Part shown: positions 31,926 through 50,667 of the stretch, one piece after another
Layout: every line of letters starts with the position of its first letter
Numbering within the stretch: position 1 is the stretch's first letter
Origin: Bacteroidota bacterium
GTDB taxonomy: Bacteria > Bacteroidota > Bacteroidia > Bacteroidales > VadinHA17
Direction of reading: 5' to 3'
Length of the DNA: 60,973 bases
NCBI GenBank assembly: GCA_022703405.1
Contig: JAKLDT010000004.1
Span: forward strand, 1 to 60,973
Position numbers and translations under genes: made by a program
Notes under the pieces: generated by a model
The model's input: the letters and a program-made list of their open reading frames with translations, nothing else
Databases searched by the model: none
Told to the model about the DNA's origin: nothing

Positions 31926-34496
31926 CTATTCTTCACTGTAATCAGCTGATCCTCTTCCAAGTATCTGCCCAAAGAAGATTGCATTCAGGAACACCTTGTT
32001 GGTACCGTACCATGTAGCCCTGAAATTTGTGTTTTCGTAAATTGATATTATCCTGTTGCCATGGACGCTTGCAAATGGTGAACCCTTTATCCGTTTGATA
32101 TTCTGAGAGGTGCAGTAGCCACTTAACAGCGGACTGTCGGTATACACAATCGGATTATTGTAAATTGTTGAATCCATTTTTGCAACAAGAGTACCAGCTT
32201 TGAAAACCGGAAGCCTGTCCTTTGTGTATCCATAGCACAATGGGTGACTCAGATCAATCCTGGTCTCGAAAATAGAACCCGGTATAAGCTGAGCCTGCCG
32301 GTCTTCCTGCATATTTGCATAGACTCCCGTCTTTCTTTCAGGTTTAAATTCTTCAACAAAGCTTATTGATGCTATCTTTTTATCTGCCAGCCACCGGTTG
32401 CCGCTTTCATAAGCGATGATTGTACCTCCCGTCCTGTTCCATGTCTTTAGCTTTTCAACAAAAGCCGGGCTTGTCTGAGGGTTTCCTGCTATTATTATTA
32501 CATTGTATTTCTGGAGGTTAACGCTGTTGATGCGTGAAGGCGTTATCATTGTTACAGGGATTCCGAACCTTGTATCAAGAAGATGCCATATCTCTCCCGC
32601 TTCGGCACTGTTTGAGCCATCACCGGCGAACATCATAACTGATGGTTCCTGCAGGTTAACAAAGCTGTTGCTGCCCAGATCAATTCCTTCCGGAGTGCGA
32701 CCGGTGCTGACTGCATAAACAGTTACTCCGCAGCGTTTTGCAACCTTAATTATTTCATTCTTAAGCTCGTCTCCCGAAAAAGGCTGTCCCTCACTGTGAA
32801 TGAGAATGGTTCCGAATGAAAACTCTTTCTTAAATTTACCGTCATCATAAGTGAACCTCTCAGTAGCAACTCTTGTTCTGATTCCGGCGGCCTGCAGTTC
32901 AAAAAGCGCTTTGGGAGCCAGGTACTCATTCCATTCAAAGAGGTAAGCGTATGCTTTTTCAGCTCCGATTATATCTCCTGAAGGAGCGGTTGTTTCTGAT
33001 ACTTCTTTACCGGGCAGGCCTTCAAGCTCCTTAACAGAATTGACAGATGTGTAATCAATATTGTATGCAAGGGGGAGTACCCAGGTGGAAATGTCATAGA
33101 AGAGACTGTCAGTAAAGATTTTAACTGGCTCAAAAAGGCTTCGTATATACCTGAATTCATTCTGTTTAAGCGGTACAACATAACTGTTGCCTGTTGTATA
33201 GTTCACGCCCTCCCTGCTTACATCCTTTGCAAGCCTGTACACTTTTATATTGTGCTGTCTCAATACGTTTATAAATTCTGTAAGCCTGCCTTTGTCTTCA
33301 GTCTCTCCGAAAATATATGCCTTGACAGGATGCCTGTCTGCCTCAGTAACAGAGTTTTTGTAAAAATCAGCCTGGCATTCAAGGAGCTTCTTTCTCATCT
33401 TTAATCCTGCTTCCAGTGATGATAATGAGACCGATACATGATTTCTTATTGCGAATGGGAACGAAATTGTTCCTGCCGCCGTATTTCTAAGATGACCTTT
33501 TACACCCGCCTGTTCAAAAAGTATTCCCACGGCACCGTGTATGTCGGGATATGATGATCCCTTGCCTACATAAAAGTCATCGAATCCCTCTTCGGAATAG
33601 TACAGACTTCCGATCTCGTTAAGGTATTTTTCATGATAAGATGCCACCTCTGAAGTAAGAGTGTGGATTATATCCGGGGTCATTGGATTGTTCCTTGATC
33701 TGACGCCTGGCTGGAAAAAGAATGTTGATCCGGCTTCCATTTCATGATGATCAGTCACAATATTCGGTCTCCACCTGTAATATGCAGCCATCCTTCCCCT
33801 TGTCTCGGGATGCTGCAGAAAGAGGTAGTCGCGGTTAAGATCAAACCAGTAATGGTTGGTGCGCCCGCCAGGCCATGGTTCTGCAAATTCCCATGAGTCG
33901 GAGTCGGGATTGTCGTTCAGACTTCTTGTTGAATTCACCCACGAAGAATGACGCTGCATACCGTCAGGATTGAGAGAAGGATCGATAAGTATCACTGCAT
34001 TCTGAAGGAGAGCATTTATTGCATCGCCCTCGCCTGCAATAAGGTGGTAAGCAACTATGACAGATGAATTCTGCGCACTCGATTCATTACCGTGAATACC
34101 GTAGCCCAGTTTGATAACAATGGGCATTTTATCAATATTTACATTTCCGGAAGTTGCCGGATCACAGAGTTTCAGGTGTTCCTGCCTTATTGCCTCAAGG
34201 TTTCTTATATTCTCCGGTGAGCTGATAATCAGGTTGCCAAGAGGACGGTTTTCATAACTTTTTCCATACTCATCCCATACGGCCCTGTCAGAAATCCTAG
34301 AAAGTTCGAGGATATATGAATACAGTTTGTCATGAGAAAGATGCCATTCCCCAGGCTCGTGACCAAAAAACTGCAGTGGAGTGGGGACCTCTTTGTTATA
34401 GGTTACATTCCCCGGCAGGAAATAGGACAAAGGTTTCTGGCAGAAGGAGTTTTGCGATAAGATTAATACAACGCTTAAAATAAATATCTTTCTCAT
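31926..34496 (-). CDS. Secreted M14-family zinc carboxypeptidase
   Basis: An 856-residue exported protein (signal peptide 1-19, ending SFCQ). The N-terminal half is an M14 carboxypeptidase domain: zinc motif HGNE (GIHGNESSAQNS), the DPSLNPDGMQRH block and TDHHEMEAGS. The second half (about 400-856) is a long extension including a flavodoxin- or amidotransferase-like segment seen in large Bacteroidota M14 proteins. Probably digests peptides in the periplasm, which suits an amino-acid fermenter. It lies 39 bp downstream of the tyrosine phenol-lyase-like gene on the same strand and may share its transcript, and so its Tyr leader. Confidence 0.87.
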   Translation of the reverse strand: MRKIFILSVVLILSQNSFCQKPLSYFLPGNVTYNKEVPTPLQFFGHEPGEWHLSHDKLYSYILELSRISDRAVWDEYGKSYENRPLGNLIISSPENIRNLEAIRQEHLKLCDPATSGNVNIDKMPIVIKLGYGIHGNESSAQNSSVIVAYHLIAGEGDAINALLQNAVILIDPSLNPDGMQRHSSWVNSTRSLNDNPDSDSWEFAEPWPGGRTNHYWFDLNRDYLFLQHPETRGRMAAYYRWRPNIVTDHHEMEAGSTFFFQPGVRSRNNPMTPDIIHTLTSEVASYHEKYLNEIGSLYYSEEGFDDFYVGKGSSYPDIHGAVGILFEQAGVKGHLRNTAAGTISFPFAIRNHVSVSLSSLEAGLKMRKKLLECQADFYKNSVTEADRHPVKAYIFGETEDKGRLTEFINVLRQHNIKVYRLAKDVSREGVNYTTGNSYVVPLKQNEFRYIRSLFEPVKIFTDSLFYDISTWVLPLAYNIDYTSVNSVKELEGLPGKEVSETTAPSGDIIGAEKAYAYLFEWNEYLAPKALFELQAAGIRTRVATERFTYDDGKFKKEFSFGTILIHSEGQPFSGDELKNEIIKVAKRCGVTVYAVSTGRTPEGIDLGSNSFVNLQEPSVMMFAGDGSNSAEAGEIWHLLDTRFGIPVTMITPSRINSVNLQKYNVIIIAGNPQTSPAFVEKLKTWNRTGGTIIAYESGNRWLADKKIASISFVEEFKPERKTGVYANMQEDRQAQLIPGSIFETRIDLSHPLCYGYTKDRLPVFKAGTLVAKMDSTIYNNPIVYTDSPLLSGYCTSQNIKRIKGSPFASVHGNRIISIYENTNFRATWYGTNKVFLNAIFFGQILGRGSADYSEE

Positions 34497-34535: not shown

Positions 34536-36002
34536 CTAAAGGCTGTCGCCAAAATCCTGGCGGAACTTTGCCAGAAGTTTTTCAGGCCAGTTGCCGATTG
34601 ACTCCAGACGGCCGGTAAAGAACCTGAGTACAGGTGGCTCCTCCACAAATTTAAGTCCTCCAATAAGCTCCCTGTTATGGTACAGCCAGTTCAGCCTGTC
34701 AATTATATATTCTACCTGCGACAGGGTAAATACTCTTCTTGGAAATGCAAGTCTCATGAGTTCAAGGTCGGCATATATATCGTTACCTTGTTCATCGCGA
34801 ATGCTGCTGAGTGTTCCTCTTTCCATGCCCCTGATTCCTGATATAATATAAAATGCAGCAACAAGTGCGCCTGCAGGGTATTCGCTCTGAGGAACCTGTG
34901 GTATAAACTGCTGAGCTTCAACATGACAGCCAAGGGCTCCGCCAGGCATAATTACAGGCAGTCCAAGTTTGTCCAGTTCAGTTACTGCATAATTAATAAA
35001 TGATGGCGACTGACCGACAACATCTTCTTCCTTTGTTTCAAGCAAACCTGTTGCCATGGCTTCAATCTCCCTGATTGAAATACCTCCGTAGGTAAGGAAA
35101 CCCTCATAAAGAGGCACAAGGTCTTTCATCATGCCGTACAGTTCCTTGTTATTTGTACATATTGCCCCTCCACGTGATGAGCTGACCTTTCGTCCGGAGA
35201 AATAAACTATATCGCACAGATTGCACATCTCAGTAAGGATTTGATGAATTGAACTGTTCATGTACGCCGGTTCACGTTTTTTAATGAAGTAGGCATTCTC
35301 ACCTATAAGGCTTGCATCCATCACTACTATTATTTTGTACTTGTCAGCAACAGCCCTTACTTCTTCAAGGTTTTTCATTGAGAAGGGCTGGCCTCCGATA
35401 AGGTTCGTTGATGCTTCCATTCGGATGAAGGGTATGTTTGCCGCTCCATGCTTTTTGATCAGTTCCTCGAGCCTTTGGATATCTATGTTTCCTTTGAATG
35501 GATTTGTGCTCTTTATTTTCATTGCTTCCGGTGTGAACAGCTCAACAACTGTACCTCCGTTAAGTTGTATATGTGCAAGTGTTGTTGTAAAGTGGTAATT
35601 CATAGGGATATAGGAGCCCTTCTTTACAAAAGTCTGTGAAATTATGTTTTCTGCAGCTCTTCCCTGGTGGACAGGCAGCACGAACTTTTTATTGAATACG
35701 TCAAGTACGCTTTTCTCGAACTTCACAAAGCTCTGTGATCCGGCGTATGCATCATCTGCCACGAACATGCTTGAAAGCTGGTTATCGCTCATTGCATTTG
35801 TGCCGCTGTCGGTAAGCATGTCAAGGAAAATGTCCTTTGTTCCGAGGAGGAAGGTATTATATCCGGCTTCCTTTATTGCTTCCAGACGTCTTTCAACAGG
35901 TACAAGATTCAGAGACTGTACTATCCTTACCTTATGCATTTCGAGAGGCAGTTCTTTTCCGCTGAAGAATTTCACTTTTCTGCTGTTCAATGTTTTTTCC
36001 AT
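34536..36002 (-). CDS. Tyrosine phenol-lyase-like beta-eliminating lyase, divergent
   Basis: A 488-residue PLP enzyme of the tyrosine phenol-lyase/tryptophanase family. It carries three tyrosine-lyase signatures rather than tryptophanase ones: HFTTT (139-141), MERGT (393-397) and RFFT (460-463), the latter two where TnaA has VEIG and RHFT. PLP Lys272 (SGRK), Asp229, and the AYAGS and TNLIGGQP motifs remain. Two changes are odd: SGKKD is SGRKV, and the Arg that contacts PLP O3' in the DAxR motif is Leu232. Family members split tyrosine to phenol, pyruvate and ammonia, a reversible reaction. Substrate here is unproven. A promoter, Tyr-rich leader ORF and terminator precede it. Confidence 0.85.
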   Translation of the reverse strand: MEKTLNSRKVKFFSGKELPLEMHKVRIVQSLNLVPVERRLEAIKEAGYNTFLLGTKDIFLDMLTDSGTNAMSDNQLSSMFVADDAYAGSQSFVKFEKSVLDVFNKKFVLPVHQGRAAENIISQTFVKKGSYIPMNYHFTTTLAHIQLNGGTVVELFTPEAMKIKSTNPFKGNIDIQRLEELIKKHGAANIPFIRMEASTNLIGGQPFSMKNLEEVRAVADKYKIIVVMDASLIGENAYFIKKREPAYMNSSIHQILTEMCNLCDIVYFSGRKVSSSRGGAICTNNKELYGMMKDLVPLYEGFLTYGGISIREIEAMATGLLETKEEDVVGQSPSFINYAVTELDKLGLPVIMPGGALGCHVEAQQFIPQVPQSEYPAGALVAAFYIISGIRGMERGTLSSIRDEQGNDIYADLELMRLAFPRRVFTLSQVEYIIDRLNWLYHNRELIGGLKFVEEPPVLRFFTGRLESIGNWPEKLLAKFRQDFGDSL

Positions 36003-36022: not shown

Positions 36023-36060
36023 TTAAAAAAAAGAGGCTTACCTTGTTTCCTGGTAAGCCC
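36023..36060 (-). terminator. Leader terminator of the tyrosine attenuator
   Basis: On the minus strand an 8-bp perfect stem (GGCTTACC / GGTAAGCC, arms 36059-36052 and 36042-36035), 9-base loop, then TCTTTTTTTT: a textbook intrinsic terminator. It lies 23-57 bases upstream of the ATG of the tyrosine-lyase-like gene, inside its own leader, so it can only make sense as conditional termination, or as the far-downstream terminator of hydE. Confidence 0.85.
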
Positions 36061-36097
36061 CGTATATCAAATTTTATGTTTTATAACATGTTTTTAT

Positions 36098-36119
36098 CCG
36101 GACTTACGTATGTATCCGG
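36098..36119 (-). promoter_or_regulatory. Alternative leader hairpin competing with the terminator
   Basis: CCGGA (36119-36115) and TCCGG (36102-36098) form a hairpin with extra internal pairs (TAC/GTA). The segment GTAAGTCC (36107-36100), which includes the leader stop codon TAA and part of this 3' arm, is complementary over 8 bp (one G-U) to GGGCTTAC in the 5' arm of the terminator. The two pairings exclude each other, giving the 1:2 / 2:3 / 3:4 logic of classical attenuators. Confidence 0.7.
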
Positions 36120-36175
36120 TAATAATAATAATAATAATAGTAATAAATAGAAATATTCAATTTTACTAAATCCAT
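36104..36175 (-). CDS. Tyrosine-rich leader peptide, 23 residues with nine Tyr in a row
   Basis: A 23-codon ORF: MDLVKLNISI, nine consecutive Tyr codons, RIHT, then TAA. It starts about 12 bases after the predicted transcription start and ends inside the alternative hairpin. The Tyr run reads TAT TAC TAT (six times) TAC; the two TAC interruptions remain tyrosine, which argues for selection on the peptide rather than a chance AAT microsatellite. Ribosome stalling here when Tyr-tRNA is scarce would free GTAAGTCC to block the terminator. The downstream gene encodes a tyrosine phenol-lyase-like enzyme, an appropriate target. No similar ORF precedes the other genes I inspected. Confidence 0.82.
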   Translation of the reverse strand: MDLVKLNISIYYYYYYYYYRIHT

Positions 36176-36192
36176 TTCTTAACAGATTTTTT

Positions 36193-36223
36193 CAAACCTA
36201 ACTTATTTTTGTCAGATATCAAA
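36193..36223 (-). promoter_or_regulatory. Promoter of the tyrosine-attenuated gene
   Basis: TTTG (36223-36220), 19 bp, then TAGGTTTG (36200-36193): an exact match in sequence and spacing to the Bacteroidota promoter consensus. Transcription should begin near 36187, giving a leader of about 185 bases before the structural gene at 36002. Confidence 0.75.
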
Positions 36224-49290: not shown

Positions 49291-50667
49291 TTACAACCTT
49301 TCCAGTTCAACTGTGAAATGTCTCATTATCTGTGCTTCCCTTTTGATTTTCAATCCTGATTTGATTGAATGTCTTCTGTCAAAAACATTTGATGCCACAG
49401 CTGCAATGTATTCTATATGCCTGTATGTATAAACCCTCCGTGGTATTGCAAGCCTGACCATTTCAAGTTCAGGGAACCTGTTTTCCCTGGTAAGCGGATC
49501 CCTGTCGGCAAGGAGGGTTCCTATTTCAACTGTCCTTATACCTCCTTCAAGATACAGTTCCACTGCAAGAGTCTGCGCCGGAAATTCCTCCCTTGGTATT
49601 GAAGTCAGAAAATTCTTTGCATCTATGAATATTGCATGTCCGCCAAATGGCTCAATAAGTGGGATCCCGGCAGATTTCAGCATGGTACCAAGGTACTCGA
49701 CCTGTTTAATTCTCGATTCAAGATACCTGAACTCTGTGCCCTCATAAAGGCCCTGGGCAAGTGCGTTCATGTCCCTGCCCGACATGCCGCCATAGGTTAT
49801 AAAGCCCTCATATATAATGTTATAGGTACTTGCCTGCCGGTAGAGTTTTTCATCACGAAGTGCAATGAATCCACCCATGTTCACGATGGCGTCTTTTTTT
49901 GAGCTCATCGTCATTCCGTCTGCATACGAAAACATTTCTCTGCTAATTTCAGTTATCTCCATGCCGGCGTAACCTTTTTCCCTGGTTTTAATGAAATAGG
50001 CATTTTCGGCAAAGCGAGCTCCGTCAATTATCAGTTTAACTCCGTATTTTTTTGCAAGCGCTGACACTTCCCTGATATTCTCCATGCTTACAGGCTGCCC
50101 TCCTGCAGTGTTGTTTGTAACAGTAACAATTATAAAGGGCACCTTGCCGGCTGGTGTCGTTTTAAGTACATCCTCAAGCTTTTCTGTATCAACATTTCCT
50201 TTGAAAGGATGCCATACTGATGGGCTTTTTGAAGCCTCAATAGTACAATCAACTGCCTTAGCCTTCCTGAATTCTATATGCCCCTTTGTTGTGTCGAAAT
50301 GAGAATTTCCGGGTACTATGTCTCCTTCTTTCACAAGTACTGAGAACAGGACATTTTCTGCAGCCCTGCCCTGGTGGGTAGGCAGAAAGTACTGGAATCC
50401 GGTTATATCCCAGATTGCATCCTTCAGGTTGTAAAATGATGAAGCTCCTGCATAGCTTTCGTCTCCGGTCATAATCGCTGACCATTGCCTGTCGCTCATG
50501 GCGCCTGTTCCTGAATCGGTAAGCAGGTCGATGTAAACCTGTTCAGACCGGAGATTGAATAGATTGAATGAAGCATCCCTGATCCAGCGTTCGCGTTCTT
50601 CCCGGGTACTTCTGTAGATGGCTTCGACCATCTTTATCTTATATGGTTCTGAAAATGGTAATTCCAT
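49291..50667 (-). CDS. tnaA: Tryptophanase
   Basis: A 458-residue PLP enzyme that splits tryptophan to indole, pyruvate and ammonia. PLP Lys258 lies in MSSKKDAIVNMGG, the phosphate/PLP Arg218 in DGARFAENA, and the tryptophanase signatures VEIG and MRHFT (the latter with the family His) are present, unlike the tyrosine-lyase-like paralogue at 34.5 kb. The sequence is very close to Bacteroides TnaA as I recall it (start MELPF.E..KIKMVE). A hairpin lies in its 5' leader. No tryptophan permease or TnaC-like leader is seen. Confidence 0.94.
   Translation of the reverse strand: MELPFSEPYKIKMVEAIYRSTREERERWIRDASFNLFNLRSEQVYIDLLTDSGTGAMSDRQWSAIMTGDESYAGASSFYNLKDAIWDITGFQYFLPTHQGRAAENVLFSVLVKEGDIVPGNSHFDTTKGHIEFRKAKAVDCTIEASKSPSVWHPFKGNVDTEKLEDVLKTTPAGKVPFIIVTVTNNTAGGQPVSMENIREVSALAKKYGVKLIIDGARFAENAYFIKTREKGYAGMEITEISREMFSYADGMTMSSKKDAIVNMGGFIALRDEKLYRQASTYNIIYEGFITYGGMSGRDMNALAQGLYEGTEFRYLESRIKQVEYLGTMLKSAGIPLIEPFGGHAIFIDAKNFLTSIPREEFPAQTLAVELYLEGGIRTVEIGTLLADRDPLTRENRFPELEMVRLAIPRRVYTYRHIEYIAAVASNVFDRRHSIKSGLKIKREAQIMRHFTVELERL

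Follow-up and report, generated by a model that had tools for sequence, protein, structure and literature searches.

Anatomy of the leader ahead of the lyase gene

The window, by which we mean the whole 60,973-nucleotide stretch of Bacteroidales DNA analyzed here, carries on its minus strand a gene for a beta-eliminating lyase. Upstream of this gene lie a promoter, a leader ORF with nine tyrosine codons and an intrinsic terminator, all at the positions and on the strand given in a preliminary description of the sequence:

36220–36223, minus strand: promoter −33 element TTTG, read off the sequence
36193–36200, minus strand: promoter −7 element TAGGTTTG, 19 nt past the −33 element
36104–36175, minus strand: leader ORF of 23 codons, product MDLVKLNISIYYYYYYYYYRIHT, with its stop codon inside region 2
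36119–36145, minus strand: control codons, nine Tyr in a row (TAT and TAC)
36098–36119, minus strand: candidate protector hairpin formed by CCGGA (region 1) and TCCGG (region 2), a fold prediction
36100–36107, minus strand: region 2, GTAAGTCC, antiterminator strand containing the leader stop codon
36052–36061, minus strand: region 3, GGGGCTTACC, terminator 5′ arm and partner of either region 2 or region 4
36033–36042, minus strand: region 4, GGTAAGCCTC, terminator 3′ arm
36025–36032, minus strand: run of eight T of the intrinsic terminator (hairpin 36033–36061)
34536–36002, minus strand: gene for a 488-aa beta-eliminating lyase from a phenol-lyase-like clade, ATG at 36002
31926–34496, minus strand: M14 carboxypeptidase, 39 nt behind the lyase and possibly cotranscribed with it in the window

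The TTTG and TAGGTTTG elements form what we take, from the consensus, to be a promoter of the Bacteroidota type. Nine consecutive tyrosines were obtained in 0 of 20,000 shuffles of the window leader ORF. The run mixes TAC with TAT, as had been pointed out before, and TAC interruptions also occur in the leaders of relatives. Likewise correct was the claim that the leader stop region can form 8 bp with the 5′ arm of the terminator; this pairing of region 2 (GTAAGTCC) was calculated at −12.1 kcal/mol and was equaled by 1 of 1,000 mononucleotide shuffles of the spacer. The antiterminator (2:3) and terminator (3:4) pairings are mutually exclusive.

In an Rfam scan, neither a T-box nor any other known RNA leader reached its gathering score; Thr_leader came closest, with 21.7 bits where 55 are required. 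A second Tyr-run gene in the same genome was also considered and rejected, as the sole other run of five TAY codons in the assembly (75% complete) was a chance match, out of frame inside a transporter-like ORF.

Conservation upstream of lyase orthologues

The search covered 60 relatives, then 62 genomes of the genus and 117 of the family, and the orthologue set comprised 23 near-full-length lyases, namely the window's own gene and 22 others at 62–84% identity. A Tyr-rich leader ORF and a terminator of the same kind were found ahead of 17 of these 23 genes. The preliminary description had proposed examining the orthologues for a Tyr-run ORF, a terminator and the alternative pairing; all three are kept in these 17 family members and, in addition, in a further Bacteroidales genome, L085. 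Examples of the orthologue leader peptides are MGIFKLNIGIYYYYYYRLIYK, MGIIKLNIGIYYYYYCRLI, MSISKLNIGIYYYYYYYRQITVSPVIN, MNIDHYRHYYYYCRLTDVSLDLV and MIINGCNYYHYYYYHGLPGVSRDW and, from another genus, MHYYHNHFFYYCRYWDPVST. All 16 leaders checked have a TAnnTTTG box ahead of the leader start, at −24 to −30 in 14 of them, at −12 in L036 and at −15 in L085.

The Tyr leader was absent in six of the 23 family orthologues (L002, L009, L010, L015, L033 and L035), and none was found upstream of the lyases L014 and L016, which belong to different families within the order. Weak matches to a model of the leader lie directly before the lyase in two leaderless genomes, G070 (E = 0.002) and G024 (E = 0.014), which suggests leader decay there. 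A truncated lyase, L017 (G023), was excluded from every leader count; this copy lacks the N-terminal side, covering query residues 215–488 only, and has 442 nt upstream to the contig end.

Across the 117 family genomes, with 35 candidates scored per genome, the leader model gave 17 matches at E ≤ 6.2 × 10−6, all adjoining a lyase gene; the model itself had been trained on the 17 family leaders. A wider genome collection contributed 80 loci, ten of which duplicated genus genomes (seven with the leader). Sixty-one other loci, three of them with less than 120 nt upstream, were scanned for Tyr-rich ORFs, 42 of these 61 were covered by the terminator scan, and nine (L119–L127) were left out. Among the 61 loci, whose enzymes have 45–71% identity, a Tyr-rich short ORF and a terminator occurred together only in L085.

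A chance TAT microsatellite beside an ordinary terminator might be supposed in an AT-rich region such as this, where single repeats drift easily. This explanation is refuted by the conservation, as 18 genomes have an in-frame, Tyr-rich ORF broken up by TAC codons, with similar spacing and pairing, and it can practically be dismissed.

Codon content of the leader peptides

Tyrosine accounts for 94 of the 411 residues in the 18 leaders, encoded by 77 TAT and 17 TAC codons. Where the run contains other residues, these are mainly Cys, His or Phe, a single step from Tyr. Outside the run, no residues common to all 18 leaders were seen by eye; close relatives have KLNIGI in common. This lack of common residues beside the run argues for codon reading rather than a tnaC-like arrest peptide.

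The same observation bears on an inducible catabolic leader, in which an excess of tyrosine would arrest the ribosome and turn on degradation. Known phenol-lyases are indeed catabolic, with TyrR activating them in Erwinia and Citrobacter on the account cited below. A fixed arrest site was not seen, however, judging by eye from the 18 leaders beyond the Tyr run, and an intrinsic terminator with competing strands is present here, while tnaC uses Rho. We regard a tnaC-like leader as quite improbable. A queuosine-tRNA sensor (Tyr, His, Asn and Asp codons), suggested by a few leaders rich in these codons, was rejected, since in the KLNI group hardly any of them apart from Tyr were seen by eye.

Competing pairings and ribosome geometry

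In the 17 family leaders, 97.6% of the cells of the terminator helix are paired and four of its ten pairs have changed on both sides, a level of covariation reached by 1 of 500 shuffles. The antiterminator helix is paired in 81% of cells in the family leaders, against 14–57% in slid versions, and its core is invariant. Covariation of the 2:3 helix within the family was absent, with one pair changed on both sides and 461 of 500 shuffles scoring as high. The covariation that the preliminary description proposed to look for was thus seen in the terminator helix but not, within the family, in the antiterminator helix. Shuffle support for 2:3 was weak in L004 (0.61), L008 (0.17), L011 (0.09) and L005 (0.08). 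Region 2 is conserved both where the stop codon lies inside it, in the window and its near relatives, and where the frame reads through (VSP, VSL and VSR); being kept irrespective of the stop position, it behaves as expected of an RNA strand under constraint.

Independent support for the antiterminator comes from L085, in which all helices differ yet the same pairing can form. The elements in this genome are arranged as in the family leaders, and its leader MRTILSNRYSYCYSRSFDRV (RYSYCYS), hairpin and terminator have little helix sequence in common with the other leaders. Its region 2 GACCGGGT and the 5′ arm of its terminator ACCCGGTT form a pairing of −14.0 kcal/mol, a value that 0 of 1,000 shuffles matched, and its last Tyr codon lies 12 nt upstream of region 2. 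In an enzyme tree of 71 of the 83 loci plus the window's second lyase, which included 14 of the 18 leader genes (L012, L013, L036 and L037 missing), L085 grouped with leaderless relatives, apart from the main leader clade. Given this position, its switch is either old and diverged or newly evolved.

The last Tyr codon of the run stands 11–16 nt before region 2 in 17 of the 18 leaders (11 nt in the window). The exception is L178, where the run ends 25 nt before region 2 and a later lone Tyr codon lies at 16 nt by manual count; in L003 and L031, an extra lone Tyr codon sits directly against region 2. The footprint of a stalled ribosome reaches some ten nucleotides past its A-site codon, so with this spacing region 2 would start just outside a ribosome stalled where the run ends. 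Measured from the first base of region 2, the stop codons fall at −8 to +25 nt in the 18 leaders.

Folds were then predicted with ribosome edges set to assumed values. For a ribosome halted where the run ends, with region 4 unmade, 2:3 was predicted in 18 of 18 leaders (5.4–9.8 expected pairs). With the ribosome at the stop codon, the terminator formed in all 18 predicted folds, region 2 being masked, largely by construction. When region 4 was present together with a stalled ribosome, the equilibrium fold preferred the terminator in 14 of the 18 leaders, and in the window the terminator had 9.2 expected pairs versus 0.7 for the antiterminator. Antitermination must therefore be kinetic, 2:3 forming first. 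Contrary to the attenuator model, the ribosome-free folds of L036 and L085 favored the antiterminator over the terminator.

Region 2 was also predicted to pair upstream before region 3 is made, in all 18 leaders, and in 14 of them with at least three expected pairs to the stretch directly after the Tyr run. This protector pairing beat 2:3 in only 11 of the 18 predictions once region 3 was out. In the window, the protector had 7.6 expected pairs before region 3 and then tied with 2:3 (3.9 versus 3.9).

Genomic neighborhood

At most loci of the genus, the lyase is flanked on one side by a keto-acid oxidation cluster (acd, ACT, paaK, an aminotransferase and three oxidoreductase subunits) and on the other by a hydrogenase cluster that includes Rex and often HydG, with HydE often upstream of the lyase. 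Of the gene names in the window, seven were checked by family models and the others were read from ORFs. The hydrogenase and keto-acid oxidation surroundings suggest fermentation. By eye, no conserved operon partners were seen among 30 of 31 loci outside the family.

An M14-type gene follows the lyase in five genomes including the window, in one at only 21% identity, and is not a constant partner. In four genomes (L130–L133) a HydG-type gene comes after the lyase on the same strand, split in L131. These HydG-type genes have 42–44% identity to the window HydG, with a TM1266-like gene in between in three; in L132, the HydG-type and TM1266-like genes were confirmed by family model.

HydG consumes tyrosine, and the attenuator might chiefly serve this neighbor or the M14 carboxypeptidase, as their placement behind the lyase in four and five genomes, respectively, would allow. 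Against such a role, five leader-bearing lyases (L003, L012, L013, L036 and L037, which are L129 and L143–L146) have their next gene on the opposite strand. At the L038 locus, 0 of the 22 other window genes tested were found nearby, though the lyase has the same kind of leader. Since L038 keeps the leader without the window's neighbors, the leader belongs to the lyase, and we consider control aimed mainly at the neighbors very improbable.

The L038 locus (also L147, in G060) is at another genomic place and its lyase sits deeper on the enzyme tree, with a leader very like those of the main clade. This suggests that lyase and leader were transferred as a unit or have an old origin. A tie of the leader to the HydE/HydG maturases was rejected, as the linkage is common in the genus, yet at the locus of several genomes with lyase and leader neither maturase was found.

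The lyase and its clade

The enzyme belongs to PF01212 and to the tryptophanase subfamily model NF009709 (582 bits). It falls below the cut-off of the curated phenol-lyase equivalog TIGR02618 (449.4 versus 720.7 bits) and below the cut-offs of both curated tryptophanase equivalogs. Of the tryptophanase residues D137, F304, V394, I396 and H463, it matches only F at 304. Assignment as a tryptophanase was rejected on both counts, the missed equivalog cut-offs and the single common residue of five.

By sequence, the closest solved relatives are the tyrosine phenol-lyases of Citrobacter and Erwinia, from which the window lyase differs in having F for M288 and replacements at R217, K256, D258 and N262. 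In the clade, R217 is replaced by L in 63 of 63 members, K256 by R in 62 of 63 and N262 by R or K in 63 of 63, while position 263 shows the loss of a single residue. Residues 217, 256 and 262 have roles in binding PLP and a cation. Positions T124, M288, M379, R381 and F448 are named in PMC5805759 as separating phenol-lyases from indole-lyases. The window lyase matches the phenol-lyases of Citrobacter and Erwinia at four of these five, retaining T124, M379, R381 and F448 of the Citrobacter enzyme. Among 63 aligned clade members, T124 was kept in 61, M379 in 60, R381 in 62 and F448 in 61; the alignment held 65 of the 86 loci, 63 of them of the clade, and the other 21 had been dropped by a strict motif filter or for short length.

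The earlier label 'tyrosine phenol-lyase-like' can be refined: the pocket is mostly of the phenol-lyase type, but the enzyme lies in a separate clade and is not a canonical phenol-lyase. Relatives include archaeal, Zixibacteria, WOR-3, Opitutales and many Bacteroidota records. The phenol-lyase-like clade is a wide bacterial and archaeal one, and both members tested (window and L085) scored under the curated phenol-lyase cut-off. The window contains a second lyase (49291–50667), which is a tryptophanase over the NF053783 cut-off; upstream of it, a Trp-containing short ORF was not seen by eye.

Proposed control and role of the lyase

From anatomy and conservation, the leader is very probably a classical ribosome-mediated attenuator of the trp/his type that reads charged tRNA-Tyr and controls the lyase. 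When tyrosine is ample, the ribosome would pass the Tyr codons to the stop codon in or near region 2 and mask region 2; the 3:4 terminator would then form and transcription would stop before the lyase. When Tyr-tRNA is short, the ribosome would stall in the Tyr run with its front edge leaving region 2 free, 2:3 would form first and the lyase would be transcribed. From the order of the strands we infer that a shortage of charged tRNA-Tyr opens the lyase gene.

Control of the starvation type on a supposedly catabolic enzyme suggests tyrosine synthesis rather than breakdown. Given the attenuator, the most likely use of the lyase would be to run its reaction backwards and form tyrosine out of phenol with pyruvate and ammonia (or serine), a role about which we have slightly more doubt than confidence. 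It is a more tentative thought that the phenol-lyase-like clade could be a tyrosine synthase, switched on in starvation by the first tyrosine-dedicated translational attenuator and giving anaerobes a salvage route around the shikimate pathway. Some isolate names hint at fen, sediment and digester habitats, where we assume phenol to be present.

The intact classical pathway, the fermentative surroundings and the unusual active site speak against synthesis, and any of them could mean another substrate. tyrA was found in 36 of the 36 genus genomes searched, so tyrosine is obtainable by the usual route, and the idea that the lyase makes up for an absent tyrosine pathway was rejected. We consider it somewhat less probable than the synthetic role that the attenuator is real and reads Tyr-tRNA while the lyase acts on some other beta-substituted amino acid or yields ammonia and pyruvate, tyrosine shortage being a proxy for amino acid hunger. 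Besides the fermentative surroundings, the clade-wide replacements R217L, K256R and N262R/K at PLP and cation residues would fit this, as activity may differ from that of the classical enzymes. Control codons that are (nearly) Tyr alone and a pocket mostly of the phenol-lyase type both point instead to tyrosine.

If the proposed tyrosine-reading, synthetic role is true, tyrosine would join the amino acids read by leader-peptide attenuation, and the sign of a control element would serve as evidence on the physiological direction of an enzyme. A natural use of the reversible phenol-lyase reaction for synthesis would also become directly testable.

Relation to known systems

The trp, his, pheA, leu and thr attenuators likewise combine a short leader ORF, control codons, antiterminator and terminator strands and a stop near region 2. 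The present leader differs from them in its Tyr codons and in its target, a beta-eliminating lyase and not a biosynthetic operon. In tnaC, a leader peptide similarly stands ahead of a gene of the same enzyme family; it senses an excess of free tryptophan by nascent-peptide arrest and blocks Rho, in contrast to the shortage logic and intrinsic terminator of the lyase leader. Tyrosine is the inducer in the activation of phenol-lyases by TyrR. The sign expected of the lyase switch, on at tyrosine scarcity, is opposite to that of such phenol-lyases, and PMC1173090 describes the phenol-lyase genes of Erwinia and Citrobacter as activated by TyrR.

Our literature search, conducted mostly without subscription papers, found neither a tyrosine-only attenuator nor an attenuator on such a lyase, and little on leader attenuation in the phylum of these Bacteroidales. 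The nearest counterparts are predictions. The uORFC-13-1 motif upstream of aroF in Acholeplasma is presented in the text on that motif as a predicted uORF attenuator with Phe codons (PMC8632094); it too concerns aromatic synthesis, but with Phe codons, a DAHP synthase gene and another phylum. Putative computer-predicted attenuators before tyrA operons (PMC1173090) also concern tyrosine genes, but they are sited before tyrA and the attenuation section of that paper states no control codons for them. A survey of Actinobacteria places tyrosine under T-boxes and not attenuators (PMC1262725). For Bacteroides thetaiotaomicron, a transcriptome paper mentions short ORFs that resemble attenuation leaders and gives a single example (PMC7366714).

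Other leaders in these bacteria

In the window's own genome, genes for prephenate dehydratase, an aminotransferase, prephenate dehydrogenase, DAHP synthase/chorismate mutase and aroA lie in a row, the prephenate dehydratase and DAHP synthase matches being under the curated cut-offs. Before this aromatic operon (L047:15780–15918, contig C350, minus strand) is a Phe/Tyr leader, MNFVYTYYAPFFYFFFYFKKN, with a terminator. A Phe/Tyr-rich leader ORF precedes the pheA-tyrA-aroF-aroA operon in 25 of the 26 readable genus loci, the pheA start being placeable in 26 of 30 fetched loci. Three of these leader loci were scanned with Rfam and gave no match. The genus's aromatic-operon leader (MNIVYKYFISFYYFYFYFKNR type) resembles the lyase leader in having a leader ORF and a terminator, the latter read closely in the window's own genome. 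It combines Phe with Tyr codons and precedes genes of the classical pathway, whereas the lyase leader is Tyr-dedicated.

A Tyr leader before non-lyase genes was also considered. Twelve weaker matches of the leader model were examined, and this candidate was rejected because most of them (11 of 12) were leaders before ilvD-like genes, so named from N-terminal likeness and, for L206, from a family-model check as well. Apart from the lyase leader, the leader attenuators observed in this analysis guard biosynthesis, which makes the lyase an exception in kind. Compared across relatives, these sequences supply evidence for three types of leader, Tyr, Phe/Tyr and Ile/Leu/Val, within a single Bacteroidales family. 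The leaders standing immediately ahead of ilvD-like genes bear terminators and come from four genera of the family (L196, L197, L199–L204 and L206–L208), and six of the 11 contain Ile/Leu/Val-rich short ORFs.
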